A stretch of 64,000 nt of DNA from Anaeromyxobacter dehalogenans 2CP-C (GTDB taxonomy: Bacteria; Myxococcota; Myxococcia; Myxococcales; Anaeromyxobacteraceae): positions 3,694,001 to 3,758,000 of the forward strand of contig NC_007760.1 of NCBI RefSeq assembly GCF_000013385.1. The letters are read 5' to 3'. The notes under the pieces are model-generated. The model searched no databases. It worked only from the letters and a program-made list of their open reading frames with translations, and was not told the DNA's origin. Shown one piece after another: positions 39,634-55,243 of this stretch. Positions within the stretch are counted from its first letter, which is position 1. Every line of letters starts with the position of its first letter. A program made the position numbers and the translations under genes.

Positions 39634-40245
39634 CTACCGCCACCGGCCGGCCTGAACGAATGAGAAGTACCCCCCGGTCGCGACGATGACGTGGTCTCTC
39701 GCCACCACTCCGACCAGCTCGGCCGCGGCTGTCAGCCGCTCCGTCAGATCCGCGTCCTCGACACTCGCGGATGGATCGCCGGATGGGTGATTGTGCACGA
39801 AGACCACGCCGTGCGCGCCCTCGCGCACGGCGACGCGGAGCGTATCCCGCGGGCTGACCGGGCACTGTGAGACCGAGCCCTGCGCCACGCGCTCGGTCCG
39901 GATGAGCCGCCCGCGCACGTCGAGCAACACGACGTGGAACTCCTCCACCGGCGCGTGCGCGAGCGGCCGCATCAGCTCGTAGACGCGACCTGGGTCGAGG
40001 CACCGCTCGCCGCGCTTCGGCGGCGCCCAGGCTCCCCGGCGGCCGAGCTCGAACGCCGCGGCGAGCGCCGCCGCCCGCGCCTCGCCGACCCCGAGCCGGC
40101 GAAGCTCGGCGACGGTGAGCCACGCGAGCTCGGGTACGGGGCGGCTGGCGGCGCCGCCGGCGCCGAGCATGGTGAGAAGCTCGACATCGGAGAGCGCCCG
40201 CGGTCCGTCCATCAGGAGCCGCTCACGGAGCAGGTCCTTGGCCAT
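39634..40245 (-). CDS. radC: RadC family protein (JAMM/MPN+ domain)
   Basis: A 203-aa RadC-type protein. The N-terminal half has a helix-hairpin-helix region (ALSDVELLTMLGAGG; ELRRLGVGEARAAALAAAFE). The C-terminal half is a JAMM metal-binding domain with the motif HNHPSGDPSASVEDADLT. RadC proteins are frequent on mobile elements and in anti-restriction regions; their cell role is unclear. It lies 11 nt after the zinc-ribbon gene and is the last gene of the hairpin-rich block. Confidence 0.92.
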   Translation of the reverse strand: MAKDLLRERLLMDGPRALSDVELLTMLGAGGAASRPVPELAWLTVAELRRLGVGEARAAALAAAFELGRRGAWAPPKRGERCLDPGRVYELMRPLAHAPVEEFHVVLLDVRGRLIRTERVAQGSVSQCPVSPRDTLRVAVREGAHGVVFVHNHPSGDPSASVEDADLTERLTAAAELVGVVARDHVIVATGGYFSFVQAGRWR

Positions 40246-40256
40246 GGCGGCCTCCC

Positions 40257-40739
40257 CTACGCCTGCGCCCGGGGCGCGCCGCGGCGGATGGTGGGCGGCC
40301 GCGCGACGACCTTCGCCGGCACGGGCGGGAGGTTCAGCGAGGCCGGCACCGGAACCGGCGCGCCCTTCGGCCACCACCAGAGCTGGGCGACCGGGTCCCA
40401 CCGCCACCCGGCCCGCTTCAGCTCCGTCCGAATCTCCTCCGGCGGCTTCCGGTCGAACCGGAGCGCCGGCTGGGGTCCGTGGTGCCGGGTCTTCTCGACG
40501 TGGAACGCCGGCTCGGCCTTCCCCCGCTCGGCCTCGGCGACCAGCCGCAGGTCGAGGAGCGCCGCTCCGCAGTACGTGCAGCACTCCTCCTGGACCGTCG
40601 TGTCCGCGGCGTACAGCGGAAGGATCGGATGGCCGTTGTAGTCGGTGTCCGCCGGCCCGAGTCCCGTGGTGGACCGGAGGCACGCGGGGCAGAAGACCTC
40701 GTCGTTCGCGCTGTAACCGAGGACCGTGAAGGGCTTCAT
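40257..40739 (-). CDS. Zinc-ribbon protein of unknown function
   Basis: A 160-aa protein starting at the ATG at 40739, set by AGGAG 8 nt upstream. Two Cys pairs (FCPACLRS and CCTYCGAAL) form a probable zinc ribbon in the first 65 residues. The C-terminal half contains RFDRKPPEEIRTELKRAGWR, then WDPVAQLWWW. This 'aGWRWdp--w-W' signature recurs in plasmid-borne helicase and primase accessory proteins. Its leader carries the first copy of the repeated GGCACCGCGCCGCC hairpin. Confidence 0.78.
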   Translation of the reverse strand: MKPFTVLGYSANDEVFCPACLRSTTGLGPADTDYNGHPILPLYAADTTVQEECCTYCGAALLDLRLVAEAERGKAEPAFHVEKTRHHGPQPALRFDRKPPEEIRTELKRAGWRWDPVAQLWWWPKGAPVPVPASLNLPPVPAKVVARPPTIRRGAPRAQA

Positions 40740-40764: not shown

Positions 40765-40804
40765 GGCACCGCGCCGCCTCGCCCGACACGGGCGGGGCGG
40801 TGCC
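40765..40804 (-). repeat. Leader hairpin repeat, copy 1 (before the zinc-ribbon gene)
   Basis: Arms GGCACCGCGCCGCC (40765-40778) and GGCGGGGCGGTGCC (40791-40804) pair with one mismatch around a 12-nt loop that can itself pair (CGCCCG/CGGGCG). It ends about 25 nt before the zinc-ribbon start codon, just ahead of the AGGAG site. The remainder of the gap to 41008 has further short GC palindromes (for example GACGCC/GGCGTC near 40910). Confidence 0.8.
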
Positions 40805-41255: not shown

Positions 41256-41293
41256 GGCACCGCGCCGCTCACCGGGAGCGGCGGCGCGGTGCC
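41256..41293 (-). repeat. Leader hairpin repeat, copy 2
   Basis: Arms GGCACCGCGCCGC (41256-41268) and GCGGCGCGGTGCC (41281-41293) pair perfectly over 13 bp. The arm nearest the gene ends 25 nt before the start codon at 41230, just upstream of the AAAGGAG site. Confidence 0.85.
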
Positions 41294-41538: not shown

Positions 41539-41577
41539 GGCACCGCGCCGCCTCGCCCGGCACGGGCGGCGCGGTGC
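41539..41577 (-). repeat. Leader hairpin repeat, copy 3
   Basis: Arms GGCACCGCGCCGCC (41539-41552) and GGCGGCGCGGTGC (41565-41577) pair over 13 bp around the same TCGCCCGGCACG-type loop as copy 1. It lies 25 nt upstream of the 55-aa gene start. No other gene is seen in 41514-41748. Confidence 0.85.
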
Positions 41578-41748: not shown

Positions 41749-43041
41749 CTACGCCGCGAACAGGGCGGTCGCGCTCGGGTCGTCGGCGGTCGAGAGGTCG
41801 GTGACCGCGTGGACCTCGTCGCACCACGGGACGAGCCACTCCCGCTCGACACCGATCCCGAGCCCGAGGATCGTGACGCCGAGCGCGGCGGCGCTCTCCC
41901 GAAACGCGCCCGCCTCGCTCGCGTCCGAGCCGCCGTCTGTGACGAGCACGAGGTCCGCCTTGCCGAGCGCGCCCGGGTGCGTCCGGATGATCTCGAGGCC
42001 GCGGCGCACCGCGGCCGCGATCTCGGTCCCTCCGCAGCAGGAGACGAAGAGCCCGTCCTCGGGGAGTGCCTCGGACGGCTTCACGACCGCCTCGAACTTC
42101 ACGCGCGCGTCGAAACCCAGCAGCGCGAACGTCCGTCGTTCGCGCTGCGCCTGGTCGAGGAGCGCGAGCGCGACCGCCGTTGCCCACACGTCCCGCGGCC
42201 CGTCCATCGAACCGCTCTTGTCGAGGAGGACCACGAGCGGCCCCTTCCCGAGGGTCGCCGTCCCCTCGAGCCGGTACTGGAGGGACCGGCCCTCGAGGAG
42301 AGCGCGCAGGAAGTCGAGCCGCAGGAGCCGGTGCGACAGCTTCGCGAGCTCCACCGGCAGCGCCCGGCCCAGGTCCGCGCCCTGCTCGACGTCGGTCACC
42401 TCGTCTGCGCCGTGCTTCACGCGGTGGCGGCGCTTCGCCGCCGCGATGCGCTTGAAGCGGCCGGCGAGGGCGGCGATGCGCCGGAGGCGCTCGTCGCCCT
42501 TGAGCCGCGCGGCGAGCGACCTCACCGCGCCCTGCTCCCGCGGCACGCCGTCCGCCGTGCCCGTTCCCGGGAGCAGTCCCCCTCTGAACGCGACGTGCGC
42601 GAGCCCCTCGGCCGCGTCGCGCAGCTCCGCGACCGCGCGCGCCGCCGCCGCGCACGCGGCGGCGAGCGGGCGCCGCAACGGATCCTTGCCGACGCCCGGC
42701 GCAGCCGGCGGCGGCTCGTCGGGCGGAGGCAGGTTCAGCTCGCGCACGATGGCCTCGACCGCCGCCGCGGAGGCCGCGGCGTCGCCGCGGCACTCCGCGG
42801 ACAGCCTCGCGAACGACGGCAGCGCGTCGCAGGTCGAGTGCACGCGCTCCGCCCACGGGCGGAGCGCGGCATTCACCCGGCTCGGGGCCAGCCGCTCGCC
42901 CTCGCCGGTGTAGAGCCGCTCGAACAGCTCGTCCTCGAGCCGCAGCTGCGGCGCGTCGCGCTCCTGCGCGCGCGGCATCTGGCGGTGTTCGCGGTGCAGC
43001 ATGAGGTGCCACCGCGAGACGTCGAACAGGAGACGTTTCAT
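41749..43041 (-). CDS. VWA-domain protein (ViaA/CoxE-like)
   Basis: A 430-aa protein with a C-terminal von Willebrand A domain. Its metal-ion site DKSGSMDG is near residue 272, followed by GGTEIAAAVRRGLEII and LVTDGGSDASEAG. The N-terminal 250 residues are helical. This architecture pairs with MoxR/RavA AAA+ ATPases, and such an ATPase gene lies 69 nt upstream of this start. Pairs of this kind act as chaperone-like complexes on metal or membrane targets; the target here is unknown. A strong GC hairpin lies before the GGAGG site. Confidence 0.88.
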   Translation of the reverse strand: MKRLLFDVSRWHLMLHREHRQMPRAQERDAPQLRLEDELFERLYTGEGERLAPSRVNAALRPWAERVHSTCDALPSFARLSAECRGDAAASAAAVEAIVRELNLPPPDEPPPAAPGVGKDPLRRPLAAACAAAARAVAELRDAAEGLAHVAFRGGLLPGTGTADGVPREQGAVRSLAARLKGDERLRRIAALAGRFKRIAAAKRRHRVKHGADEVTDVEQGADLGRALPVELAKLSHRLLRLDFLRALLEGRSLQYRLEGTATLGKGPLVVLLDKSGSMDGPRDVWATAVALALLDQAQRERRTFALLGFDARVKFEAVVKPSEALPEDGLFVSCCGGTEIAAAVRRGLEIIRTHPGALGKADLVLVTDGGSDASEAGAFRESAAALGVTILGLGIGVEREWLVPWCDEVHAVTDLSTADDPSATALFAA

Positions 43042-43110: not shown

Positions 43111-44259
43111 TCAACGCGCGGACGCGAGCCCGAGCCCGGCGCTCACCGCCCGCGCCAGTTCGTAGTGGAGCTGCGCGATCTCCTGGTCCGCGTCCCCGAG
43201 CGCCGCCTTGGCGCGCGGACCGGCACCGCTCGTGAGCTCGCGGAGTTTCTGCTGCTGCGCCTTGAACTCCTCGAGCGCCTGCGCCGCCTGGGCGAGGTAG
43301 CTCTTCCGATCGGACGTCCGGAGCGCGGCGACCCGCGCGGCGGTCTCGCGCGCGGCGTCGAGGACCTCGGCGGCCTTGGCGCTCACCGGGTCCGCGAGCT
43401 GTCCGACGATCTGGGCGACCTTCGCGTGCTCCTTCGGCTCGCGCCAGAGCGCGTGCGTGAGGACGAGGAGGTCCTCCGGGGTGGTCGCGGCCTCTCCGGC
43501 GAGCCACGTCGCCGCCTGGACGACCTTGAGCGTCTTCTTCCAGCGACGGTCGGACGCGACGATGCCCTCGGCGCGGCAGCCGTCCCGGATCGCGATGAGC
43601 GCCTGGACGGTCTCGTCGGTGACCTTCACCCGCGCGGCGTCGCCCTGCGCCTGGCGGAGCTCGGGCATGGTCAGCGCGGAGGAGCAGGTCGGCTCCGGCG
43701 CGAGCAGGACGGCGCGGAAGCTGCTCGGCCGCAGGAGGTACTGCACGTCGAACCGGAGGAGGAACCGGTCGAAGAGCGCCTCGAGCTCCTTCCCGTCCGG
43801 CAGCTCGTTCGACGCGCCGAAGAGCGCGACGAGCGGCATCTGCATGGGCGACCCGTCGTTGTGGAAGAGCCGCTCGTTCATCGCCGTGAGGAGCGAATTC
43901 AGGATGGCCGAGTTCGCCTTGAAGACCTCGTCGACGAAGGCGAACTCCGCCTCGGGCAGCTTCCCCGCGGTGACGCGCTGGTAGTGGTCCTGCTCGAGGG
44001 CCTTCAGGCTGATCGGGCCGAACAGCTCCTCGGGCGTCGAGAACTTGGTGAGGAGCCGCTCAAAGTAGCTCCCGCCGAACGCCTGCGCGATCGCGCGGAC
44101 GAGGGCGCTCTTCGCCGTTCCCGGCGGCCCGAGGAGTAGGACGTGCTCGCCGGCGAGCACGGCGGCGAGGGCGCCTTCGATGACGTCGCGGCGCTCCGGG
44201 AAACGAGCGAGGAGCTCCGAACGAAGCTGCAGCAGCTTGGCATGTGCGGACGTGGTCAT
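43111..44259 (-). CDS. MoxR/RavA-type AAA+ ATPase
   Basis: A 382-aa AAA+ ATPase. Walker A, GPPGTAKS, is at residues 44-51 and Walker B, FAFVDEVFKAN, near residue 107. The surrounding stretches KFSTPEELFGPISLKALEQD and LNSLLTAMNERLFHNDG are typical of the RavA branch. The C-terminal 130 residues are helical and coiled-coil like. It is directly upstream of a VWA-protein gene, matching the RavA-ViaA pairing seen in many bacteria. It starts 15 nt after the previous gene without a hairpin leader. Confidence 0.92.
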   Translation of the reverse strand: MTTSAHAKLLQLRSELLARFPERRDVIEGALAAVLAGEHVLLLGPPGTAKSALVRAIAQAFGGSYFERLLTKFSTPEELFGPISLKALEQDHYQRVTAGKLPEAEFAFVDEVFKANSAILNSLLTAMNERLFHNDGSPMQMPLVALFGASNELPDGKELEALFDRFLLRFDVQYLLRPSSFRAVLLAPEPTCSSALTMPELRQAQGDAARVKVTDETVQALIAIRDGCRAEGIVASDRRWKKTLKVVQAATWLAGEAATTPEDLLVLTHALWREPKEHAKVAQIVGQLADPVSAKAAEVLDAARETAARVAALRTSDRKSYLAQAAQALEEFKAQQQKLRELTSGAGPRAKAALGDADQEIAQLHYELARAVSAGLGLASAR

Positions 44260-44274: not shown

Positions 44275-45150
44275 TCACGCGGCCTTGGTCTGGAGGAGTC
44301 CCTCGACCTGGAGGGTCAGCTTGTTGAGCGCGGTCTCGAGGTCCTGGACCTGCACCTGCAGGACGGTGTGGTAGAGCCGGGCCTTCGCGCGGAGGCCCTC
44401 GAACGTCTCGAGCCGACGCGCGAGCGTGGACGCGCGCTCGGGCGGGTCCGAGAGGAAGCCCTCGATCTCGGCGCGGAGCGCCGTGATCTCCTCGTCGAGC
44501 GAGGCGCGCGCAGCGTCGCCGAGCGCCGCCGTCGCCTCGGGCGACGCGTGGATCGGGACGACGTCGAGGCGCGAGGCGCCGATGTTCGACACGGCGTCGC
44601 GGAGGCGTCGGAGCGTCTCCGCGTACGGCGCCGGGACCCAGTAGACGCCGCCGTGATCGCGCAGCGTCACGGCGGCGCACGACGCGAGCGTCTTCACGAG
44701 CGCACGCCGGACGTCGTCCGGCGTGTGCGTGTTGAGCAGCCGGTCGTAGGCGGCGGACACGGCCACGACGACGTCGTGGCCGGGCCGGTCGGACTCGAGC
44801 TTCACGGGGCGCGCGCGGTCGAGCCGGATCCGCGCCGTCTGCGCGAGGGAGACGTTCCCGTCGCCGTCGCGGGTCTCGGCGACGACGGCGAAGACGATCT
44901 CGCCGTCGTCCTCCTTCCCGAGCCGGAGCAGGTGATCGTGCTGCCCGACCTGCGCCTCGCGGACTGCGGTCCGGAGCGCCTTCTCGGGCGTGGGCGGCTC
45001 GGGCAGGAGGTTCTCGGCGAGCCCGGCGTTCGCCCAGACGGTCTCGAGCGTGCTGCGGGTAACCCTCGCGTCAGCGAGCGTCCACCAGAGGAGATCGCCG
45101 ACGTGCTTCCCGCCGGTGTGGGTGTAGGAACGGATGAGCTCCACGGACAT
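44275..45150 (-). CDS. Unknown protein upstream of the RavA-like ATPase
   Basis: A 291-aa protein starting at the ATG at 45150 with GGGAG upstream. It opens with LIRSYTHTGGKHVGDLLWWT and then LADARVTRSTLETVWANAG. A mixed alpha/beta middle follows (HDVVVAVSAAYDRLLNTHTP; GGVYWVPAPYAETLRRLRD), with a long coiled coil at the C-terminus. The pattern resembles conserved proteins found beside MoxR/VWA genes on mobile elements, but I cannot assign a family. It has hairpin copy 4 in its leader. Confidence 0.75.
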   Translation of the reverse strand: MSVELIRSYTHTGGKHVGDLLWWTLADARVTRSTLETVWANAGLAENLLPEPPTPEKALRTAVREAQVGQHDHLLRLGKEDDGEIVFAVVAETRDGDGNVSLAQTARIRLDRARPVKLESDRPGHDVVVAVSAAYDRLLNTHTPDDVRRALVKTLASCAAVTLRDHGGVYWVPAPYAETLRRLRDAVSNIGASRLDVVPIHASPEATAALGDAARASLDEEITALRAEIEGFLSDPPERASTLARRLETFEGLRAKARLYHTVLQVQVQDLETALNKLTLQVEGLLQTKAA

Positions 45151-45179
45151 GCTGGACTCCCTGTTCGAAGTGAGGAGGC

Positions 45180-45216
45180 GGCACCGCGCCGCCCCGCCCA
45201 GCCGGGCGGCGCGGTG
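45180..45216 (-). repeat. Leader hairpin repeat, copy 4
   Basis: Arms GGCACCGCGCCGCC (45180-45193) and GGCGGCGCGGTG (45205-45216) pair over 12 bp. It lies 29 nt before the start codon at 45150. The rest of the 209-nt gap up to the parB stop is GC-rich without a gene; a second GC hairpin (CCCCCGGGGCTCC / GGAGCCCCGGGG) sits near 45257-45290. Confidence 0.8.
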
Positions 45217-45359
45217 ACGGCTCGCGACCCGAGGCGGCGCTGTCGGGGGAGAACCCCCGGGGCTCCGAGCAACCTGGAGCCCCGGGGGGCGGTGAGCCCG
45301 ACACCACAGGGAGAGGCGGCGGGCTTTTCCTCGCGTTCCGGCCCGACGGCCGGGACGCG

Positions 45360-47057
45360 TCAATTACCGGGCGGCGTCTTCTTCGACTTGCGCGCGCCGC
45401 GCTCTGCGCGGCGCTGCGCGAGCTCGTCCGCGGTTGCCTTCTCGACCGCGCCGATGTCGACCGCGTACGCAGCGGCGGCGGCGGTCAGCCGGTCCGAGTA
45501 CCGCGAGGACCAGGCGAAGTACGCACCGCGGCCGACCGCGAGCTCGAGGACGAGGGCGCGCAGCGCCCCGCCGTCGAGCTCCCTCGCGTGCGCCGTCAGA
45601 GCCGCCTCCGGAGAGAAGCCCTTCTCGCGCTCGAGCCCGCGCCGCTTCACGGCGTCCGCGACGGCGTCGTGGTAGCCGCCGTGGACCATCGCGTCGAACA
45701 CGAGCCGCGCGAAGGTCGAGTCGTCCGGCGGCCGCGCCTGCGCGGCCGCGACGACCGCCGAGAGGATGTTCGCGATCGTGGCGCGGCGCAGCTCCGCGGC
45801 GGCGCGCGCCGCCGCCGGGTCGGCGGGCGGCGCCCTCGGTGCGGGCGCCTCGCCGTCCTCGGCGTCCGGGTCGTCGTCCTGGGTGCTCACTCCTGAGTCG
45901 CGCCGCCCCACGAACTCCACTCCGGCCGCGGCGAGCGCGGCGAGGGCCTCCGCCTTGCCCACGAGGGCGCGCGGCGTGCCTCCCGCATCCGTCGCGAGCG
46001 TCGGGGTTGGGCAGAGATCGCCGAGCAGGCGCCGCAAGGTCCGCCGCTCCGAGTCGTCGAAGCAGACTGCGTCCAGCTCCACGTAGTTGCTGTTCCAGGG
46101 GAGCTGGCGGCCGCCGTGGAACACCGCGTTCGACTGCTGCTCGGTCAGGACGGTGCCGCCCTTCGCCCGGACCTCGCTCGCGAGCCGCTCGTGGTGCGCG
46201 GCGACCTTCTTCCGGAAGCAGACGAGGTCGGTGCACGTGTCCGCCGCGGTGTCGTCCGAGAAGAGCCGGGGTTGGTTGCCGGTGCGCTTCGGGCACTTCG
46301 TGCACGCGCCGGCCTCGGGCACGAGCTTCGCGTCGTCCGTCGAGAACTGGGCGCGGTCGAGCCGCGTCAGGTACCGCTGCTCGACCAGGTACGCGAGGTC
46401 GTCTGCCGGGAACGGCTCGCCCTCCTCCAGATCCTCGAGCTCCTTCCGCAGCTCCGACAGCGCCTCGTCCTGAAGGGCGGGAGGAACCGCCCTCGCCACG
46501 AGGAACGCGGTGGTGGTCGTGAGCTCGCCTTTCCAGAAGGCATCCCGCATCGCGGGCCCGAGCGCCGTGAGCTTCAGGCGCGAGTAGACATACTGCGGCG
46601 ACCGGCCCACGAGCTTGGCCAGCGTGTCCGCGGTGTGGAGCGGCCGGCCGCGGCCGTCCTTCATCGCGAGCAGCGCCTCGTACGCCTCGGCCTCCTCGAC
46701 CGGGTGCGGGTCCTCGCGGCAGGCGTTCTCGACGATCCGGAGCTCGTGCGCCTCCTCGTCGGTGAGATCCTCGACCGTGGCCGGCACCTCCTTCAGGCCC
46801 GCCAGCTTCGCCGCCCGGTAGCGGCGCTCGCCGTAGACGATCTCGAACCGCGAGCCCTTCGGCCGGACCTTGATCGGCTGTTGAATGCCGTGCTCGCGAA
46901 CCGACGCGACCAGCTCGTCGATGTTGCGCGCCGTCCGGTTCCGCGGCGACGGATCGATGTCGTCGATCGGGACGAGCCGGACTGGAACCGGCTCGAGGCC
47001 CGCTGGCCGCGGCTTCACCGCGGGCTTCGTCTTCTTCGCTGTGGCACTCGCCTTCAC
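45360..47057 (-). CDS. ParB-like protein with an internal zinc-finger region
   Basis: A 565-aa ParB/Spo0J-family protein. The N-terminal CTPase/ParB domain has VPIDDIDPSPRNRTARNIDE and YGERRYRAAKLAGLKEVPA, followed by the helix-turn-helix (HTADTLAKLVGRSPQYVYSR). After residue 240 a Cys cluster (CTKCPKRTG, then TCTDLVCFRKKVAAH) suggests a zinc-binding insert. The C-terminal 170 residues are helical and unlike chromosomal ParB. The start is a GTG at 47057, 7 nt after AGGAGG. It has no parA next to it, unlike the second ParB at 53216. It may be a regulator or nucleoid-type protein of the element rather than a partition protein. Confidence 0.87.
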   Translation of the reverse strand: MKASATAKKTKPAVKPRPAGLEPVPVRLVPIDDIDPSPRNRTARNIDELVASVREHGIQQPIKVRPKGSRFEIVYGERRYRAAKLAGLKEVPATVEDLTDEEAHELRIVENACREDPHPVEEAEAYEALLAMKDGRGRPLHTADTLAKLVGRSPQYVYSRLKLTALGPAMRDAFWKGELTTTTAFLVARAVPPALQDEALSELRKELEDLEEGEPFPADDLAYLVEQRYLTRLDRAQFSTDDAKLVPEAGACTKCPKRTGNQPRLFSDDTAADTCTDLVCFRKKVAAHHERLASEVRAKGGTVLTEQQSNAVFHGGRQLPWNSNYVELDAVCFDDSERRTLRRLLGDLCPTPTLATDAGGTPRALVGKAEALAALAAAGVEFVGRRDSGVSTQDDDPDAEDGEAPAPRAPPADPAAARAAAELRRATIANILSAVVAAAQARPPDDSTFARLVFDAMVHGGYHDAVADAVKRRGLEREKGFSPEAALTAHARELDGGALRALVLELAVGRGAYFAWSSRYSDRLTAAAAAYAVDIGAVEKATADELAQRRAERGARKSKKTPPGN

Positions 47058-47078
47058 GGGCGACCTCCTGTGATGGGC

Positions 47079-47116
47079 GGCACCGCGCCGCCTCGTCCAG
47101 AGGGCGGCGCGGTGCC
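47079..47116 (-). repeat. Leader hairpin repeat, copy 5 (before the zinc-containing parB)
   Basis: Arms GGCACCGCGCCGCC (47079-47092) and GGCGGCGCGGTGCC (47103-47116) pair perfectly over 14 bp with a 10-nt loop. It lies 21 nt upstream of the GTG start at 47057, just before AGGAGG, exactly as in copies 1-4. Confidence 0.88.
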
Positions 47117-47126
47117 GGCCGCAGCG

Positions 47127-47426
47127 CTAAGCCGCCTGCGCCAGCGGGTCCTCCCCGGCGATTTCGCGCTCGGACCAGAACTCGCCCGGGTCCGGCAGGG
47201 ACAGGGCCACCAACGCCGCCATCTCGAGCGCCTCCTCCCTGCGGTCCCACTCGATGAAGCAGGCGCGGTGGACGCGTCCGATGTCGCCGCCGGCATCGAC
47301 GACGTCGCCGGCGTTCTCGCGGTCGCAGAAGCAGCACCGCTTCGCCCCCACCCGGCGGTGTCTCGCAGGGGCGACATGCTGCTCCGGTTCGGTGACTACG
47401 GGACGGGCAAGGCTCGAATCGGACAT
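47127..47426 (-). CDS. Small zinc-finger protein
   Basis: A 99-aa protein starting at the ATG at 47426 with GAGGA about 8 nt upstream; an ATG at 47450 is possible. The motif CCFCDRENAGDVVDAGGDIG, then RVHRACFIEWDRR, gives a Cys-Cys-His-Cys zinc site. The acidic C-terminus follows. It is the first gene of the minus-strand block and is preceded by a perfect 10-bp hairpin at 47451-47481. Function unknown. Confidence 0.65.
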   Translation of the reverse strand: MSDSSLARPVVTEPEQHVAPARHRRVGAKRCCFCDRENAGDVVDAGGDIGRVHRACFIEWDRREEALEMAALVALSLPDPGEFWSEREIAGEDPLAQAA

Positions 47427-47450
47427 GGCGGGGTCCTCGTCGGCGGGCAT

Positions 47451-47481
47451 CCGGCCGCTCTCACCGACGTGGAGCGGCCGG
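47451..47481 (-). repeat. Leader hairpin before the small zinc-finger gene
   Basis: CCGGCCGCTC (47451-47460) and GAGCGGCCGG (47472-47481) pair perfectly with an 11-nt loop. The sequence differs from the five-copy repeat but holds the equivalent upstream position. Confidence 0.65.
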
Positions 47482-47512
47482 TGCCGCCGGACGGCGGCGC
47501 CTGGGTACGGTT

Positions 47513-47883
47513 CTCAGGCGGACCGCGCGCTGCGCCGACGGCCTCTCGTCGGCGCGCATGCGTGGTCCCGCCTCGGCACGGCTCTCCTTCGACTCGCTCG
47601 CCCCGCCCTGCCCGTCCTCAGGCGGACCGCGCGCTGCGCCGACCGTCTCTCGTCGGCGCGCATGCGTGGTCCCGCCTCGGCACCGCCCTCCTTCGACTCG
47701 CTCGCCCCGCCCTGCCCGTCCTCAGGCGGACCGCGCGCTGCGCCGACCGTCTCTCGTCGGCGCGCATGCGTGGTCCCGCCTCGGCACCGCTCGCCTTCGA
47801 CTCGCGGGCCCCGCCCTGCCCGTCCTCAGGCGGACCGCGCGCTGCGCCGACTGTCTCTCGTCGGCGCGCATGCGTGGTCCCGC
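47513..47883. repeat. 104-bp tandem repeat array (3 full units and a 59-bp partial)
   Basis: Units begin at 47513, 47617, 47721 and 47825, each with CTCAGGCGGACCGCGCGCTG. Every unit contains a stem GCGCCGAC/GTCGGCGC around a 7-8-nt loop, extendable outward to GGACC/GGTCC as a long imperfect hairpin. The units differ at only a few bases. The period, 104, is not a multiple of three, so the array cannot encode a repeated peptide. It lies in non-coding DNA upstream of the zinc-finger and parB genes. Centromere, origin or structured RNA are all possible. Confidence 0.85.
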
Positions 47884-47885
47884 AT

Positions 47886-48230
47886 CTACGGCGTGCGCCG
47901 ACGCTTACTGCCCGAACACTGATGACGACGTGCGCGCGCGCTCGCCTTCGCCGCGCGGCTGTCGGCGGACTTCGCTTCCGACTCGCAGGTCGCGGCTTCG
48001 TGGTCCTGGAGCGCAGCGAGCTGAAGCGCCAGATCCGCCTCGACACGACGGAACGCCGGGTCGTCCACTTCGAGTCGAAGCGCGTCGGCTGCGTCTCTCA
48101 GGGCCCTCGCCGCCCCCACGCACGCCGCTGCTTTCTTTCGAAGCGCCCGGGCGACACGAGCATGAGCCGATGCCGTTCGCACTGCCGGTGCTCTCGTCCG
48201 CGTCGTTCGTCGCACACCGTCAGATGCCAC
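47886..48230 (-). CDS. Possible small helical protein
   Basis: A 114-codon frame from a GTG at 48230. From about residue 25 it reads as a charged alpha-helical protein (RVARALRKKAAACVGAARAL, DDPAFRRVEADLALQLAALQ) with GC-rich third positions. The first 25 residues are Arg/Thr/Ala-rich and unconvincing, so the true start may be internal. No clear ribosome-binding site was found. It abuts the tandem repeats. Evidence for expression is weak. Confidence 0.4.
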   Translation of the reverse strand: MASDGVRRTTRTRAPAVRTASAHARVARALRKKAAACVGAARALRDAADALRLEVDDPAFRRVEADLALQLAALQDHEAATCESEAKSADSRAAKASARARRHQCSGSKRRRTP

Positions 48231-48342
48231 AGCATGCCCGCGGACTCACCCCGCGTTGACTGGTTCCGTTCCTTCCCGTTCTCGTTTTCCTTCTCTATGC
48301 CTCTATCCCCACACTCCCACCTCTCCTTCTCCCCTGTACCCA

Positions 48343-48373
48343 TTTGCTCCATTTTGAACCACGTGGTTCAAGA
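48343..48373. repeat. 31-bp direct repeat containing an 18-bp palindrome, copy 1
   Basis: The palindrome TTGAACCACGTGGTTCAA (48354-48371) is perfect and sits inside a 31-bp word repeated exactly at 48627-48657, 284 bp away in the same orientation. Stretches that follow both copies (GCCCGGC) also match. The two copies flank a 19-bp inverted repeat and 12-bp direct repeats. Confidence 0.85.
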
Positions 48374-48422
48374 ACTGCCCGGCCCCGCCACCAGCCCATC
48401 GAAGAAAGACTCAGGGTGACAG

Positions 48423-48468
48423 CAGCCCGACCCCTCACTCCGGTGGTTGGGAGTGAGGGGTCGGGCTG
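48423..48468. repeat. 19-bp perfect inverted repeat (hairpin)
   Basis: Arms CAGCCCGACCCCTCACTCC (48423-48441) and its exact complement (48450-48468) surround an 8-nt loop, GGTGGTTG. There is no T-run on either side, so it is not a textbook terminator. Position between the two 31-bp repeats and next to iteron-like repeats suggests a replication, transfer or recombination site. Confidence 0.85.
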
Positions 48469-48552
48469 ATGGCACCCCGCACCTCGCGACGAACGCCACT
48501 CGCAGGCGGCGGGGCCGGGCCGCCGAGATCTCGCGCGCTTACCGTCGCCAAA

Positions 48553-48593
48553 CCTGATCCCAATCCTGATCCCAACCCTGATCCCAATCCTGC
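48553..48593. repeat. Three 12-bp iteron-like direct repeats
   Basis: CCTGATCCCAAT, CCTGATCCCAAC and CCTGATCCCAAT follow each other without gaps, then a partial CCTG. Plasmid origins and oriT regions often carry such repeats. The plus-strand translation (DPNP repeats) is not part of a credible gene. Confidence 0.75.
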
Positions 48594-48626
48594 GGACTCC
48601 AGGACACACCCCCCGGGAACACCCCG

Positions 48627-48657
48627 TTTGCTCCATTTTGAACCACGTGGTTCAAGA
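48627..48657. repeat. 31-bp direct repeat containing an 18-bp palindrome, copy 2
   Basis: Identical to 48343-48373; the palindrome occupies 48638-48655. See that entry for the arrangement. Beyond the repeats, 48236-48771 holds no gene that I can support. Confidence 0.85.
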
Positions 48658-48771
48658 GGCGCCCGGCGCTCTTCCCGTGGCAGTCCGCGGCGGGCATGAA
48701 GAAGCCGGACGGGTACCGCAGATCATTCCGCGGCGCGTCCAGCTAAGTCGCGACCGTGCATTCTGTCGCCT

Positions 48772-48887
48772 CTAAGCGCGGCGAACTCGCGTGAGCAGTT
48801 CCTCCATCACCGCGATGAACTGCTCGCGTTGCTCCGGCGCTACGCCTCCGCTCTTAATGCGGACTCCTCGATGATGACGCAGCCCAT
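48772..48887 (-). pseudogene. Remnant of a parB C-terminus
   Basis: The minus strand encodes GVAPEQREQFIAVMEELLTR, then VRRA and a stop at 48772. The intact ParB at 53216 ends GVVTPDEREQLIAILEELLM, then RVRRV. The preceding MGCVIIEESALRA matches ParB HGRVVIEEARIQR but in a different frame, so there is an indel between them. The DNA just downstream (GAAGCCGGACGGG near 48693) also resembles DNA downstream of the intact gene (near 53145). This is a decayed copy of the same locus. Confidence 0.75.
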
Positions 48888-48897
48888 CGGGCGAAGC

Positions 48898-48936
48898 GAT
48901 GCCCAGGCGCGGCGTCGCTACCGCATCCACACGGCC
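48898..48936 (+). pseudogene. Inverted fragment of a parB middle region
   Basis: The plus strand reads DAQARRRYRIHTA, against AQARRLYRIHMA in the intact ParB near 53750, which is on the minus strand. DNA identity is also high (GCCCAGGCGCG, CTACCG-ATCCA). The orientation is opposite to the neighbouring C-terminal remnant, so the locus was rearranged as well as decayed. Confidence 0.6.
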
Positions 48937-48938
48937 CG

Positions 48939-49013
48939 AATCCGCACGCCGTGTCGCGCGGCGTCGCGAAGAAGCTCATGCGGCCCATGCCGTACACGGC
49001 GCGGCGAGTCTAG
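48939..49013 (+). pseudogene. Remnant of a VirB1-like lytic transglycosylase gene
   Basis: The plus strand reads PHAVSRGVAKKLMRPMPYTA, then RRV and a stop at 49011. The intact transglycosylase at 55744 has PRAVSRAGAKGLMQLMPYTA, then RRV. DNA identity is strong over CTCATG...CCCATGCCGTACACGGCGCG. The fragment is fused directly to the parB fragment at 48898. Nothing of the intervening parA or the 55244 gene is left. Confidence 0.75.
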
Positions 49014-49072
49014 TGCGCGAAGCGTCGCGGCGCGCTTCTCGCCTTGACTACCGCGACGGCCGTTCGCGCGGA

Positions 49073-50896
49073 CTACTCCGCAACCCCTGCACGCCGGGAG
49101 CGCCCACCGGTCCGACCTCGTGTCCGACTCGCTTCTGCCAAAGGCGGTACTTCAGCGCAGTCGCATCCCGAGAAGTTCGCAACATCCTCTCGAACAGTAC
49201 CGGTCGGGACCGCGATCACCAGAAGCGATCGAGCGCGCGTCATCGCAACGTACATCGCTCGCCTTTGTTCAGGCTCCGGCTGCCCCACACCGAGCTGCTT
49301 CACGGCGCACTCGCCGCGACTGCCTAGCGCCACCACCACTGCGTCATAGGTCTTGCCCTTGGCCGCATGGATGGTCTCGACTTGTACGCGTCGCACGCGC
49401 GAAGCGTCTCCAAACAAGGCTCTGGTTGGCACCCTCAAGAAATCCGTGACGTGCTTGCGCCCGCTCTTCACGAACGCTTTCGGCCGAAGCTCCTGCGCTT
49501 CGTCTTGCGACACAGCGACGCCGGCCACAGCCGCCGCAGCAGGGAACATCGTTTGGAGAGCGTCCGCCCACGCTCCAAGCGGCATCGCCGCGGACGGCAG
49601 TCGCTCCAACACAGTTGTGAGCGCACGGCGACGATCGATATCCATCGCGGTCGTCCGCGCACCGCTCACGGTCGCCCGGCGCAACGCGAGCGTCGCAAGA
49701 GCCGCATCCAGGAGACCGAGCGAACGACCCACCCGTCCTGCGTCGCGTTCGACGGCCGCTAGGGCGAGCAGCCTCGTTGCGCTCCCTCCCGCATCGACGT
49801 GCCAGGGGTCTACTTCGTCAGGCACCTCGAGAATGCGATTGAGCAACGTACGATTCCGAACGAGTACCGCAGCCGACCCGGCGGAAGGCGCTACGCCATT
49901 GGTCTCACAATACTCTTCAAACCGCGGCACGAGATCCGCCGGACGCTTCGGATCATAGATCCACAGAACAGGCCGAATCCCCGTGCACGTCCCCCTTGCG
50001 GCCGACGCTAACGTCGAGAAGGGCTGCGCGGCGTTGCAGATCTGTTGCGAGTTGCGCCGACTCTCGGTCAATTCGGACCGGTGATCCCAGTCAAGTTCCT
50101 TTCCACTGGCTTTACGCTCGAACAGCTCAGGGTGAGCTGCCCTCCACTCGTAGATCGATTGGTCCGGATCGCCGACCAAGACGATCTCCTGCAGCCCGGC
50201 CCCGACCAGGAGATCGAGGATCCGCATCTGCATTTCGGACGTGTCTTGGGCCTCGTCGACGACCACTTCGGGGAACCGCCTTACGAGCGCTTTCGCGACT
50301 TCCGGAAAGGATTCAAGGACCCTCACCGCCCAATACGCGGCGTCGCTCGGGGTTGCCCATCCATCCTTCCCAAACTCTCGTTTAAGAACCGAGCATCGAT
50401 CGTGCCCCGTTGGACATTGGAAAGGCCGCCGCCCACTCCTCACGATGTTTCCTGCGAGGTCCCACGAGAAGTGCTCCAACCTACACCCGCTGCGATTACA
50501 CGCGGGGCGGCCCCACGCCCATCGCCCCGAAGCCACCCAAGGCCTTTCCGGGAGCCCGACGATGGCCGGCCTCCCCGCGCATCCCATCACCCTGTGCCCG
50601 AACGGCAAGAATACAAAGGAATTGATGAAGGAGTCTAGCGTGCCGAGGAAGTGTGGATACGCTCCAAACGCGTCGCACCGGAGGGCGACAAGCGACCGAC
50701 GCACCTCCTCGCACGCGACGTTTGTGAATGACAGCGCAGCAATGCCTGCGTGGCGCGCCTTCCACTCTCGAATCCGATGGGCGAGCAGACGAGCAACCAC
50801 AAACGTTTTGCCACTGCCAGGACATGCCCGCACCGTGAAGCGGCCTCGACGCTCCACAACGGCGCGCTGCTCGTGCGTGAGGGAGTCGTCGCTCAT
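49073..50896 (-). CDS. gajB: Gabija helicase-like protein GajB (UvrD family)
   Basis: A 607-aa superfamily 1 helicase-like protein, the GajB partner of the Gabija anti-phage system. The start ATG at 50896 overlaps the gajA stop (ATGA). Motif I, VRACPGSGKTFVV, lies near residue 27. Motif II, EVVVDEAQDTSEMQ, is near residue 211 and motif III, LVGDPDQSIYEWR, follows. The C-terminal helicase motifs include ETIHAAKGKTYDAV and AMYVAMTRARSLL. A Cys-containing insert (CAGRPAIVG; ACNRSGCRLEHF) lies between motifs I and II. Base composition is lower in GC than the flanking par genes, in keeping with acquisition as cargo. Confidence 0.88.
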   Translation of the reverse strand: MSDDSLTHEQRAVVERRGRFTVRACPGSGKTFVVARLLAHRIREWKARHAGIAALSFTNVACEEVRRSLVALRCDAFGAYPHFLGTLDSFINSFVFLPFGHRVMGCAGRPAIVGLPERPWVASGRWAWGRPACNRSGCRLEHFSWDLAGNIVRSGRRPFQCPTGHDRCSVLKREFGKDGWATPSDAAYWAVRVLESFPEVAKALVRRFPEVVVDEAQDTSEMQMRILDLLVGAGLQEIVLVGDPDQSIYEWRAAHPELFERKASGKELDWDHRSELTESRRNSQQICNAAQPFSTLASAARGTCTGIRPVLWIYDPKRPADLVPRFEEYCETNGVAPSAGSAAVLVRNRTLLNRILEVPDEVDPWHVDAGGSATRLLALAAVERDAGRVGRSLGLLDAALATLALRRATVSGARTTAMDIDRRRALTTVLERLPSAAMPLGAWADALQTMFPAAAAVAGVAVSQDEAQELRPKAFVKSGRKHVTDFLRVPTRALFGDASRVRRVQVETIHAAKGKTYDAVVVALGSRGECAVKQLGVGQPEPEQRRAMYVAMTRARSLLVIAVPTGTVREDVANFSGCDCAEVPPLAEASRTRGRTGGRSRRAGVAE

Positions 50897-52884
50897 GACC
50901 GCGAACCACGACGCGCCACGTGCTTCGCTGCCGCGGACAGGTAGTCCGGAACGACGAACGTTCTTACTGGTGTGCCTTCGTCTAGCAGCGCAGCCAGACG
51001 CTGCGCTACGGCAGCCTTCATGCCCGACAGCCGAGCCCATACCGCTGCCGCGCGGCCCCAGTCGAAGTCCAGAGTCGCCGCCTGCTCTCGCAGATTCCGC
51101 GCCACTGTCGGGTGCCCGCATCCCTCGACAGCCTCGGCTATCGGCTCGAGATTGTCCGTGAACATCCCCAATTCGACTTCGAGCGTCTTCCGAGCACGAA
51201 ATACCTTTAGCGTTCCCCCCTCGAGTTCTGCGGCTTTGGAAGACCTGTCCGACTGCCGCCCTGCTGCCAGCACTCGACCGGCGGCCATCAACTCGGCGGC
51301 ATCGCGCAGTTTCGAGGGCTCGAGTTCACCAGCGCAGCGATCATCATCGGTCACGAGTGCGCACGGAATGTGGAGCCGACGAGCAGGTTCGTCGCTGTTG
51401 AAGAGCGCCGCGAATGGTGCGAATGACACACCGGCTACGGCGACGACCTCGACTGCGCTGTGATCGAACCGGTACCCCGCACGCTTTGCGAGCACGGGGA
51501 AGAGAAGCGCCTCCGAGATTCCCTCAACCAGAACGACCGCGCGCGAAAACAAGAGCTGCGATCTAGTAACGTCGAGGTACCGCCTGAGATCTGCCTTCTG
51601 GTTCTCGTCGAGAGGACACCGCCTCAGAGCCGTCGCCGTTACTCTCCCTTCAGCACGATGCATAACAATGAGGCTGTCCAAGCTCGCACGCGACGTGAGC
51701 GTCGGCGAATGTGACGTCACGAAGACTTGAACTTGATTCCCTGCGTCGTCGATAACGCTGGTTCGGCTGAGGAAGTCGTAGACGAGCACCTGAAGTTGCG
51801 GATGAATATGCGCCTCCGGCTCCTCTATCAGGAGGGCGCTGTAGTTCTGAAGCCCCGCCTTCCGACGCTCGACGAGGTCGCCAAGCACGACCCCCATGTA
51901 AATGAGGTTGTTGTACCCCATCCCGTTCTGGTCGACTCCGAACGGCTCCACGTGGTCAAGCAACTCGGCATACAACTCGCCGAGTTTCTCCTGTTCAGGT
52001 TTTCCCAGATGCCCCAACCTGATGAGCACTCGGTCTCCATCCTCCGAGACTCGGTCGAGCAGATTGGCGTTAGCGCCTGCCCGCTGGCGAAGTTCCTTCC
52101 AAGACTCCACGTCGTAGACCGCCACGAACTCGCTTTCGCCCGCCTGTGGGAGCAATAGCCGAAGCGTGTCCGCCACTCGCTCGAATGCCGGCGCACCAAG
52201 ACTGATGCGGACGCTTTGACGCAGTTCGTTTCCCGCCAGCTCGGACAAGTGATCGTTGATCATTTCGGCCGTTCTCTGGATACCCCCCTCGGCCAGAATG
52301 AAGCGATTGGCCTGTCGAACGTGAGCCTCTACGCGGGCGCGATCAACGGGATCGCTGATCACACGCTTTACGAGATGTCCCACTCGCCCCCCACGCTGGG
52401 GCCTGAGATCCGACTCCGCATCTCGGAGTGCACCAAGGTACATATGAGAGACGAGTTCCCACACTGCGGGGGGCACGGGCTGCCCCTCGACTTCCCCGCC
52501 CCACACGGTTTGACGAACTCGGCTCTGCCCGCCGACCGTTTCGAGTCGGAACCGCAGGTGAACCTGCGCCGATACTGGCGGCCCAGGAACGAGAAGTTCA
52601 TAGAAGACGCCCTGCTCGGCGTTTGAAAGCCCCTCGAAGATCGCATCTAGCCGAATCTCATGAGCCGGCTCGCCTCCCGCTGCACAGTAGAAGTCCTGCG
52701 GCTGGACATAGACGTCGCGTCTCCCGGGGCCGAGACTGAACAGCAGTCGCAAAGCGTCAACGATGGCTGTCTTCCCGACGTTATTCTCGCCGAGGATCAC
52801 GTTCATCCCAGCCTGGAACTCGATGGTGATTCCGGATGAACCGAAACACCGGAAGTTCTCGATCCGCAACGTAGCGAGATGCAT
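50893..52884 (-). CDS. gajA: Gabija OLD-family nuclease GajA
   Basis: A 663-aa OLD-family protein: ABC-type ATPase plus TOPRIM nuclease, the nicking endonuclease of Gabija. I start it at the ATG at 52884 (MHLATLRIENFRCFGSSGIT), the typical family N-terminus, with GAGGGGG upstream. Walker A, GENNVGKTAIVDAL, is near residue 35. The signature and Walker B region, ALLIEEPEAHIHPQLQ, lies near residue 357. The TOPRIM domain has VLVEGISEALLFPVLA near residue 455 and CALVTDDDRCAGEL. GajA is kept inactive by nucleotides and activated by phage-caused nucleotide depletion in the characterised system. It overlaps gajB by 4 nt. Confidence 0.88.
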   Translation of the reverse strand: MHLATLRIENFRCFGSSGITIEFQAGMNVILGENNVGKTAIVDALRLLFSLGPGRRDVYVQPQDFYCAAGGEPAHEIRLDAIFEGLSNAEQGVFYELLVPGPPVSAQVHLRFRLETVGGQSRVRQTVWGGEVEGQPVPPAVWELVSHMYLGALRDAESDLRPQRGGRVGHLVKRVISDPVDRARVEAHVRQANRFILAEGGIQRTAEMINDHLSELAGNELRQSVRISLGAPAFERVADTLRLLLPQAGESEFVAVYDVESWKELRQRAGANANLLDRVSEDGDRVLIRLGHLGKPEQEKLGELYAELLDHVEPFGVDQNGMGYNNLIYMGVVLGDLVERRKAGLQNYSALLIEEPEAHIHPQLQVLVYDFLSRTSVIDDAGNQVQVFVTSHSPTLTSRASLDSLIVMHRAEGRVTATALRRCPLDENQKADLRRYLDVTRSQLLFSRAVVLVEGISEALLFPVLAKRAGYRFDHSAVEVVAVAGVSFAPFAALFNSDEPARRLHIPCALVTDDDRCAGELEPSKLRDAAELMAAGRVLAAGRQSDRSSKAAELEGGTLKVFRARKTLEVELGMFTDNLEPIAEAVEGCGHPTVARNLREQAATLDFDWGRAAAVWARLSGMKAAVAQRLAALLDEGTPVRTFVVPDYLSAAAKHVARRGSRS

Positions 52885-53215
52885 CCCCACCCCCTCAGGC
52901 CACTCGGCCGCTCCTCGACTCGGAATGTTGCCGAGTGGACCGAGGCTCGACGGCGCGAATCGTTCATCGATGTAGCGCTCATTCCCGGGCCCCATCCGCG
53001 GCAGAACCACTTCACCACACGAACGATCCCACGTCGGCCTGACAGGGCGAGATTGCTGGCGACTCCCACAACAGGGCCGCCTCACGCAGCGGGAGAACGG
53101 ACCTCCTCCCTTCCCCTTTTGGCCCGTCGTCCGCCCGGTAACAGGAAGCCGGACGGGCCGCGAGGTCAACCGCGGCCACCGTCCGGCGAACGACGAACGG
53201 GCCTGTGAGCACCCT
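52885..53215. other. 331-nt gap between gajA and parB
   Basis: No gene is supported here. It should contain the Gabija promoter, but I found no convincing hexamer pair. Complementary GGCCCGTC and GACGGGCC words lie near 53120 and 53153 and could form a terminator-like stem for parB, without a T-run. Confidence 0.4.
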
Positions 53216-54325
53216 CTACACGCGCCGGACCCGCATCAGCAGCTCCTCGAGTATGGCGATGAGCTGCTCGCGCTCGTCCGGCGTGACCACCCCACGCTGG
53301 ATCCGCGCTTCCTCGATGACGACGCGCCCATGCTCCCTCGAGAACAGCGGAGGCGACGAGTCGGGCAACACCTCGCTTTCGGTGACTACCTCCGGCGTGA
53401 CGACCTCCGCCGCCTCCTCGGGCGTCGTATCCGAGCTCCGGTTTCCTACCGCGGTGGATGCCGCGCTGACCGCCTCGCCCGACAGCCCGCTGTTCGTGAG
53501 GGCGGCGCTCTCTTCGTCGTCCCCGCCCGCCACCTTCTTCGCGTGCTGCTCGATACGTCGGATCGGCCACTTCTCCCGCACGATGCGCTCGAGCAGCTTG
53601 TCGACCCGCTTCAGCGCCTCTTCGTTCCCGACTGCCTTCTCGAGTGCGTTGAAGACGCGATCGACCTCGATGGCTCCCCGGGCGTCGAGCTCACCGCGGA
53701 TGAGCGCCTTCTTGATGGGCTCGATCGCCATATGGATACGGTAGAGCCGACGCGCCTGGGCGTAGCTGCGCCCGATGAGCTCGCCTGCCTCGCGCACGTC
53801 GAGGTCTCGCGCCCCCATGAGCTGCGCGAGGACGTCGGCCTCCTCGACCGCGTTCAGGTTCTCGCGGTGCAAGTTCTCCTCGGCCTGGGCCAGCAGCTTC
53901 GTGGGACGGTCGACCAGCTTCGGGTCGATGATGCAGGGGATCTCCTCGAGGCCTGCGAGCTGCGCCGCCCGCCACCGCCGCTCCCCCGCGACGATCTGGA
54001 AATGTCCGGGCTCGGCCCCGTGCGGCGTCACGATGATGGGTTCCCTGACTCCGGAGCGGCGCAGGCTGTCCGCGAGTGCAAGGAGCCGCTCCTCGTCGAA
54101 CTGTTGGCGCGCCTGTCCATCCGGCGCGGGCGAGATGAGGTCCAGTCGGACCGACCGGAGCTGCTGGCCCGGGAGGATGCTGGCGAGCACTGCGTCCTTG
54201 GTCGCCTCGGCGGCGTAGACGGCAATCGGGTCGGCTCCGTTCGCGTCGGATGCCCTGACCTGTTCGGCGCGAGTGATCCGCGACGTGAGCTTCTCTACGA
54301 TGGACATCTGGCGGCCCTCAGCCAT
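53216..54325 (-). CDS. parB: Partition protein ParB
   Basis: A 369-aa ParB. The N-terminal domain has VRLDLISPAPDGQARQQFDE, then ALADSLRRSGVREPIIV and AGERRWRAAQLAGLEEIPCI. The helix-turn-helix region has VREAGELIGRSYAQARRLYR. The C-terminal domain is acidic with a final coil (DEREQLIAILEELLMRVRRV). The start at 54325 is set by GGAGG 6 nt upstream within the end of parA, which it overlaps by 8 nt. With parA it makes a full partition operon. Fragments of a second copy lie at 48772-48936. Confidence 0.92.
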   Translation of the reverse strand: MAEGRQMSIVEKLTSRITRAEQVRASDANGADPIAVYAAEATKDAVLASILPGQQLRSVRLDLISPAPDGQARQQFDEERLLALADSLRRSGVREPIIVTPHGAEPGHFQIVAGERRWRAAQLAGLEEIPCIIDPKLVDRPTKLLAQAEENLHRENLNAVEEADVLAQLMGARDLDVREAGELIGRSYAQARRLYRIHMAIEPIKKALIRGELDARGAIEVDRVFNALEKAVGNEEALKRVDKLLERIVREKWPIRRIEQHAKKVAGGDDEESAALTNSGLSGEAVSAASTAVGNRSSDTTPEEAAEVVTPEVVTESEVLPDSSPPLFSREHGRVVIEEARIQRGVVTPDEREQLIAILEELLMRVRRV

Positions 54326-55097
54326 GGCTCGCCTCCAGGATCGGCAGGAGCTCGTCGAGCGCGGCGAGATAGGCCGGCGGCCCCTTCGACGGCCGGTAGC
54401 GTGCGTCGTAGAGCGGGATCCCTTCGGCGAGCGAACGCGCGATGGCGGTGGCGAGCGGGATGCGCGTGCGGAGCGCCCGGTCACCAACGAGCCCCTCCAA
54501 CGCCTTGAGCGCCTCGCGCGACTCGGTCTGCTCCTCGACGAACCGCGTCGGCAGGTAGGCGAGCACGTTCGCTTCGGGGGCGACGCCGCGGCGGAGCTGC
54601 TGGACCACCCGTCCCAGCTCCGGGAGGACGGAGACGGCGAGCCGCGTCGTCTCGACCGGCGCGAGGATCGGCCCGGCGGCGAGCGCGTTGTAGGTGACCG
54701 GACCGAGGCTCGGGGCGCAGTCACAGATGACGAAGTCGTAGCGATCCTCGACGCGCTGGAGCGCCTCTCGGACGGCGACGGGACCGGTGAGCTGGTTCGC
54801 GCGCTGCACCTCGAGGTCGACGCCGACGGCCCAAGGGCACGCCGGGACCACATCCAGTCCTTCGCAGACGCGCTGCGGCTCGAACGGCAGCTCGGGCCTG
54901 AGCAGGAACTCGAGGACGCCGTAGGCGCCGGGCTGCGCGTCCACGCCGAGCGCCGCGGTGGCGTTCCCCTGCGAGTCGAGGTCGACGACGAGCACGCGCC
55001 GGCCGGTGCGCTGGAGTCCCCAGGCGAACGCGACGGAGGTCGCGGTCTTCCCGGACCCTCCCTTCGGCATCGCCACGACGAGTCTGCGAGCAGTCAT
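54318..55097 (-). CDS. parA: Partition ATPase ParA
   Basis: A 259-aa ParA/Soj-type ATPase. The deviant Walker A is KGGSGKT at residues 12-18. A' follows as VVDLDSQGNATAALG, and the Walker B-like DFVICDCAPSLGPVT is near residue 115. There is no N-terminal DNA-binding extension, so it is type Ib-like in size. The ATG at 55097 is preferred over the one at 55103 because GGAGG lies 8 nt before it. It is divergent from the gene at 55244. Confidence 0.93.
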   Translation of the reverse strand: MTARRLVVAMPKGGSGKTATSVAFAWGLQRTGRRVLVVDLDSQGNATAALGVDAQPGAYGVLEFLLRPELPFEPQRVCEGLDVVPACPWAVGVDLEVQRANQLTGPVAVREALQRVEDRYDFVICDCAPSLGPVTYNALAAGPILAPVETTRLAVSVLPELGRVVQQLRRGVAPEANVLAYLPTRFVEEQTESREALKALEGLVGDRALRTRIPLATAIARSLAEGIPLYDARYRPSKGPPAYLAALDELLPILEASHG

Positions 55098-55156
55098 GTC
55101 CATCTCCTCCGCCGGCGCGAATGGGGCCGGCGGGTTGACTCTGACCGTCTGGCGTG

Positions 55157-55166: not shown

Positions 55167-55243
55167 CGCGCATGCTGTGCACCTGTTGGGTCGGATTCGA
55201 GTGACTGTCAGGGGCGACCGGCAGGATGGTATCGAGGTGAAGC

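Follow-up and report, generated by a model that had tools for sequence, protein, structure and literature searches.

The 64-kb window of Anaeromyxobacter dehalogenans 2CP-C that was analysed (bases 3,694,001-3,758,000, within a single contig of 5,013,479 bp) encodes a T4CP (13609-15447), TraC/VirB4 (31286-34135), a VirB2-like pilin just under its Pfam cut-off (34234-34554), a DnaG-like primase, RadC and, at ~11.0-12.0 kb, a Replic_Relax (MOB_C) homologue with 35-36% identity. The Replic_Relax family PF13814 is recognized as a MobC relaxase superfamily (PMC5357655). With its T4SS genes, T4CP, primase, MOB_C-type relaxase homologue and RadC, the region therefore looks like an ICE, judging by its gene content. 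The 2CP-C genome paper mentions neither conjugation nor a prophage or plasmid. The window also holds a Gabija-type pair on the - strand (49073-53169; a GajB-like UvrD helicase and a GajA-like OLD ATPase, PADLOC E-values 1e-126 and 1.9e-145), which sits between the 18-bp palindromes and the parAB genes described below and for which no counterpart was seen there in a related MAG, and an AbiEi/AbiEii toxin-antitoxin pair at 60420-61894 (+).

A tandem array of hairpins

The strongest tandem repeat of the window, well ahead of any other, is a 104-bp array (Table 1; TRF period 104, 3.6 copies, 96% matches, score 686), for which a repeat search placed three unit copies in register at 104-bp spacing. 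A first-pass annotation had described three full 104-bp units and a partial one, in agreement with both searches; since the fourth unit is cut only past its hairpin, however, the hairpins number four and not three and a part. Each unit consists of one hairpin of ~58 nt and a spacer. Thirteen outer pairs are followed by the inner stem GCGCCGAC/GTCGGCGC, which is the perfect 8-bp stem nested in a longer one that had been noticed before and is found in every unit. The 3' arm contains a 1-nt bulge, fixed in place across units and variable in its base (C, A or T), so that the consensus reads AGGCGGACCGCGC ... inner stem ... GCGYGGTCC-n-GCCT. A single unit folds at -46.1 kcal/mol, compared with -31.5 +/- 3.0 kcal/mol in dinucleotide shuffles (z -4.9).

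Because the period changes between species, from 99 to 104 bp, and is not accompanied by a codon-position GC bias, the array is non-coding, as previously proposed, and a coding repeat is ruled out. Chance and assembly artefact are likewise ruled out by the TRF score, the folding relative to shuffles and the homologous arrays in independent assemblies. No Rfam family matched the array at the gathering score, and titles and abstracts of published work held no evident direct match to an array of this kind.

Table 1. Features of the array, its operon and the parAB region, with counterparts in related genomes (positions are those of the window or of the locus named)
Feature	Position	Strand	Basis or remark
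104-bp tandem array, 3.6 copies	47513-47883	.	TRF, repeat search, homologous arrays
Array units	47513-47616, 47617-47720, 47721-47824, 47825-47889 (partial)
Unit 1 hairpin	47516-47573	+	AGGCGGACCGCGC...GCGTGGTCC-C-GCCT, inner stem GCGCCGAC/GTCGGCGC, 1-nt bulge in 3' arm
Unit 2 hairpin	47620-47677	+	covariance model match (model R1), alignment
Unit 3 hairpin	47724-47781	+	covariance model match, alignment
Unit 4 hairpin	47828-47885	+	unit cut off past its hairpin, with one broken basal pair
107-aa ORF between array and ParB	47127-47450	-	likely first operon gene here; no Pfam, NCBIfam or PHROGs match
ParB-family protein	45360-47057	-	ParB_N + HTH_ParB, GERRYRA CTPase-type motif
DUF6744 protein	44275-45363	-	same operon as ParB
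MoxR/RavA-like AAA ATPase	43111-44259	-	domain matches
VWA protein (ViaA/CoxE-like)	41749-43041	-	domain matches
ORF with RadC-like JAB domain	39634-40683	-	true start probably internal
Second hairpin family	47079-47116	.	GGCACCGCGCCGCC..GGCGGCGCGGTG, just upstream of ParB ribosome-binding site
Second hairpin family, other sites	45180-45216, 41539-41576, ~41256-41293, ~40765-40804
18-bp palindrome TTGAACCACGTGGTTCAA, copy 1	48354-48371	.	parS candidate of ParAB pair
18-bp palindrome TTGAACCACGTGGTTCAA, copy 2	48638-48655	.	parS candidate of ParAB pair
ORF with ParB_N/HTH_ParB (second ParB)	53216-54853	-	domain matches
ParA ATPase	54318-55385	-	domain match
Array in A. soli SG29 (L014)			5.5 copies by TRF, 6 hairpins
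Array in A. terrae SG22 (L015)			8.5 copies by TRF, 9 hairpins
Array in A. oryzisoli SG63 (L016)			7.8 copies by TRF, 8 hairpins
Array in MAG of another genus, same family (L024/L036)			2 hairpins
213-nt leader copies, L037	12781-12993, 6116-6288
213-nt leader copies, L039	12904-13118, 5747-5918
213-nt leader copy, L038	8010-8220
213-nt leader copies, L040	9353-9566, ~19800-19960

Distribution and copy number

Homologous arrays were found in five independent assemblies including the window, always in one orientation, with 2 to 9 copies and a period of 99-104 bp. The relatives come from a DNA search within the genus and from later searches, with one genome per species. All five genomes with a ParB of 67% identity or more have the array, directly before the first gene of the operon. 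It occupies one locus per genome: the covariance model scored no other site convincingly in the genus, including the genome of 2CP-C, and, at E <= 0.001, found none further among 142 genomes of the class. In a pattern scan of the genome collection the other matches were single and had no model support as arrays (one, L056, is a single site of 29.9 bits), and one match on a viral contig, which lay inside a gene that reads like a terminase-type gene from its sequence, had no model match and was discarded.

Searching for the unit elsewhere and comparing copy numbers had been suggested at the outset; the former revealed arrays in four relatives and nowhere else in the own genome, and the latter a range of 2 to 9 copies across the five genomes, each from a different species. 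Absence from relatives or an artefact of assembly, either of which would have spoken against the first-pass reading, is not what we see, given that five independent assemblies carry the array, and the view of a structured, apparently functional array beside a ParB gene holds. The number of units can change quickly, since the flanks of the A. soli and A. terrae elements are 98.8-99.5% identical and yet enclose 6 and 9 units, respectively. The last six A. terrae units match the six of A. soli, which indicates that three units were recently gained or lost.

The ParB-led operon

In the five genomes, the operon that follows the array encodes a ParB-family protein, a DUF6744 protein, a MoxR/RavA-like ATPase, a VWA/ViaA-like protein, small proteins and RadC. 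The array does lie upstream of a ParB-family gene, as first described; the gene is on the - strand and, in the window, the 107-aa ORF intervenes. Relative to the window protein, the operon ParB is 80% identical in A. soli and A. terrae, 76% in the MAG and 67% in A. oryzisoli. The window protein itself matches the PRTRC ParB model in part, under the cut-off. No ParA is encoded in the operon. For the DUF6744 protein, the search for phage and plasmid relatives returned distant ones only (23-27% identity). An SSB gene lies within the ParB-RadC operon of A. oryzisoli (L016 16333-16809, +) and was not found in the window. On the other flank of the array the neighbour varies, being a Replic_Relax-type gene in A. 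soli, A. terrae and A. oryzisoli (a Pfam match for the A. oryzisoli copy, the others being 82-83% identical to it or to each other) and a different one in the window and in the MAG, and for this reason we assign the array to the ParB operon.

Shortly before several gene starts of the operon we observed a second family of hairpins (GGCACCGCGCCGCC..GGCGGCGCGGTGCC), which also occurs in the relatives and in the sister elements and whose exact form is confined, in this genome, to this element. It is reminiscent of sequences associated with gene starts in some phages.

The leading-type operon reads towards 39.6 kb, and the transfer genes run on in the same direction from 36.8 kb. We predict that this gene order would fit an F-type single-strand-promoter layout if oriT lay between ~36.8 and 39.6 kb; no inverted repeat was found at 36700-37100. 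At 36400-36789 (-) a small protein is encoded that is conserved beside RadC in the MAG and has, by eye, a ribbon-helix-helix-like stretch and no family match; it is possibly a relaxosome accessory protein marking a nearby oriT.

Four genomes with a ParB of ~50% identity lack the array. In these sister elements its position, before a small gene upstream of parB, is taken by a conserved, non-coding leader of ~213 nt, the copies of which are ~91-100% identical to the query copy, and in at least two of the elements a diverged second copy is present elsewhere. The leader is a candidate establishment regulatory sequence. Since either the array or the 213-nt leader stands before the operon, a structured region at this place is a general feature of these elements, and its sequence differs between the two groups.

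Signs of selection on pairing

Identity between species is 96% (5') and 88% (3') in the outer stem arms, compared with 59% each in loop and spacer, the loop alignment being imprecise. In both units of the MAG, pair 14-52 has changed from C-G to T-A, and in one of them pair 25-41 has changed likewise. When the MAG units are included, 5 cells are changed on both sides, compared with 1.5 +/- 1.0 after shuffling (reached by 1/500 shuffles), and the covariation score is reached by 0/500. In the first alignment, made without the MAG units, covariation measures did not exceed those of shuffles, so the signal rests on few events, mostly from one genome. These changes and the pattern of conservation are signs of selection on pairing. 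They also bear on whether the array could be no more than a palindrome duplicated in tandem, neutral or selfish and with no function. Such a duplication would account for the fast change in copy number between elements with nearly identical flanks, but not for stem arms that are far more conserved than the spacers across species and a genus border, for the compensatory changes, or for an array that is never dispersed and keeps its place and orientation, and we regard it as very unlikely.

The strong conservation of the stem sequence would also be compatible with a protein-binding site, and the main rival to the reading we favour is that the array is a binding or loading site of the operon's own ParB (45360-47057), centromere-like or autoregulatory. 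The array is strictly linked to this ParB in the five genomes, the protein retains ParB_N, HTH_ParB and a CTP-box-like motif, the stem arms are conserved in sequence, and a tandem layout of changing copy number is comparable to that of F sopC. Linkage, however, would be seen with any element that acts in cis on the operon, which moreover has no ParA, while the ParAB of the element has other palindromes nearby. Within the array unit there is no perfect palindrome of at least 14 bp. In addition, the gap between the conserved arms ranges from ~25 to 31 nt among units, and a variation of ~6 nt suits the loop of a hairpin and not a dyad read from one face of double-stranded DNA, the helical phasing of which it would break. 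On balance we consider a site for the operon's own ParB unlikely.

The parAB pair and its candidate parS sites

The first-pass annotation had also proposed a centromere-like array, and a second partition system, the ParA/ParB pair at 53-55 kb, lies ~6 kb away on the same element. A compact palindrome of ~16 bp near parAB, as typical of a ParB-parS centromere, is not present in the array; two perfect 18-bp palindromes occur instead at 48354 and 48638. Palindromes of this type, TTGRACCACGTGGTYCAA, are found twice in the window and twice in the MAG, in the latter as TTGGACCACGTGGTCCAA at the corresponding place (L036 16172-16189 and 16449-16466), with a symmetric base change relative to the window. 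A. soli, A. terrae and A. oryzisoli have copies of GACGTCACCGGTGACGTC instead (L016 6868-7048; L014 10592 and 15233). The MAG ParA is 89% identical to the window ParA, that of A. soli only ~44%. As far as checked, then, the palindromes follow the parAB type, whereas the hairpin array is common to both types, and the array therefore does not track the ParB of ParAB. The TTGRACCACGTGGTYCAA and GACGTCACCGGTGACGTC palindromes are clear candidates for the parS of the ParAB pair. As ParAB has different palindromes of its own, the array is better read as something other than a centromere, and we give next to no credence to the array being the parS array of this pair.

Between the two palindromes of the window lie a 28-bp inverted repeat (93% complementary, 48414-48477) and a 12-bp tandem repeat, CCAATCCTGATC (3.8 copies, 48548-48592), which is also present in the MAG (L024 4063-4107); the two are possibly an iteron-like replication region. 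Two Rfam miRNA matches at 48411-48480 fall on the 28-bp inverted repeat and were rejected, being far under their gathering scores.

Strand preference

For the ParB operon, the + strand serves as template, and both G-T wobbles and DNA folding favour this strand. On the + strand, the consensus structure has 25 G-T cells as opposed to 4 A-C, from few independent events. With DNA parameters, the whole array of the window folds with z -4.5 on the + strand and z -2.3 on the - strand, and the + strand lies further below its shuffles than the - strand in 5/5 arrays; the individual hairpins of A. oryzisoli are mostly better folded on the - strand. RNA parameters prefer neither strand (z -3.9 to -7.9 on either).

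This strong RNA folding, together with the siting of the hairpins immediately before the operon, would be in keeping with a structured RNA. It might be a 5' leader or attenuator in the operon mRNA, or else a small RNA or a sponge in repeated form; an RNA mechanism was likewise left open for EGeRS1 (PMC8708921). A repeated structured RNA, which had been one of the initial suggestions, has lost ground nonetheless: the array has no promoter- or terminator-like signal and no Rfam family, and the wobble pairs fall mostly on the strand opposite the operon mRNA. We judge it quite improbable. A scan for linear promoters found no sigma-70-like -10/-35 pair at 46900-49100 or at L014 7700-8700, by a consensus from which that of myxobacteria may differ, and an Frpo-type promoter as such is therefore unsupported.

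A possible role in establishment

Our tentative preference, held at a little under an even chance, is that the array regulates, in cis and through single-strand hairpins, the establishment (leading-region) operon of an ICE. The presence of RadC and ParB, and of SSB in one relative, leads us to infer that the ParB operon is an establishment operon; the + strand would be the transferred strand, and the array would gate the operon. The hairpins would form from one strand, most likely the + strand, the operon template. Once the element arrives single-stranded in a recipient cell, these tandem hairpins would fold, and they might then serve as double-stranded islands where a polymerase or primase starts or, alternatively, as targets of a protein gating the operon. 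While the element resides in the cell as duplex DNA, the region may help to silence the operon and insulate it from the preceding gene. An origin, the other function initially proposed, could form part of this reading as a single-strand signal used after transfer.

Several observations point to a regulatory region of this kind: the fixed place and orientation, the conservation of the arms and the compensatory changes, the variation of the arm gap, the + strand bias, the ICE genes, the leader of the sister elements and the precedent of EGeRS1 and Frpo. It is conceivable, albeit doubtful, that the array is a so far undescribed establishment element of myxobacterial ICEs that acts on the single strand, with its copy number tuning the priming, transcription or protection of the incoming strand and with the sisters using an unrelated structured leader.

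Comparison with known systems

The centromere sopC of F consists of 43-bp tandem units with a 7-bp inverted repeat and lies downstream of sopAB. The array resembles it in being built of tandem units, each enclosing an inverted repeat, close to a parB gene, but its units are of ~100 bp, with long hairpins and a variable loop, and lie upstream of an operon without parA. REP/BIME elements are imperfect palindromes with bulges, sometimes in tandem, and in these respects similar to the array; they are dispersed over the genome, however, whereas the array unit is found at one locus per genome.

The EGeRS1 of the pLS20 family is a sequence of 400-600 bp with multiple inverted repeats that precedes establishment operons, has no regular promoter and prevents readthrough, and one of its copies has an internal duplication of 131 bp (PMC8708921). 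Like it, the array spans several hundred bp, places inverted repeats directly before an operon of a conjugative element, folds strongly as ssDNA or RNA and has no regular promoter that we found. EGeRS1, from Bacillus, is not a regular tandem of ~100 bp, and the same sequence stands before several operons of one plasmid, in contrast to the single locus of the array; the 213-nt leader of the sister elements, unlike the array, has a second copy within the element in at least two of the sisters. The block of readthrough was measured for EGeRS1 only. The likeness is one of analogy, and we claim no homology.

In F-type plasmids, Frpo single-strand promoters are formed by folding of the transferred strand and drive expression of the leading genes (PMC11541004, which cites Masai and Arai 1997), the transferred strand then being the template, as also stated in PMC8708921. 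The hairpins of the array similarly favour, according to the folding data, the template strand of the downstream genes before which they are placed, as with Frpo/ssi, but Frpo has -35/-10 elements in its stem and none were found in the array. Nor is Frpo known to form a tandem array of 2-9 units. The single locus as opposed to several operons, a readthrough block that is an analogy only and the missing Frpo-type promoter are what keep our confidence in the regulatory reading slightly short of even.

The switch-on of protective genes by conjugative elements within the first minutes of entry is understood in few plasmids (F, ColIb-P9, p576) and is unexplained for EGeRS1. A compact, modular array of naturally variable copy number in a myxobacterial element would make the establishment switch-on testable, and the analysis yields, separately from the array, parS candidates for the ParAB of these elements. 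By analogy with the systems above, the array may be, although we would not yet call it probable, a structured regulatory region of a conjugative establishment operon, of a kind that is known and in a tandem hairpin form that would be new.
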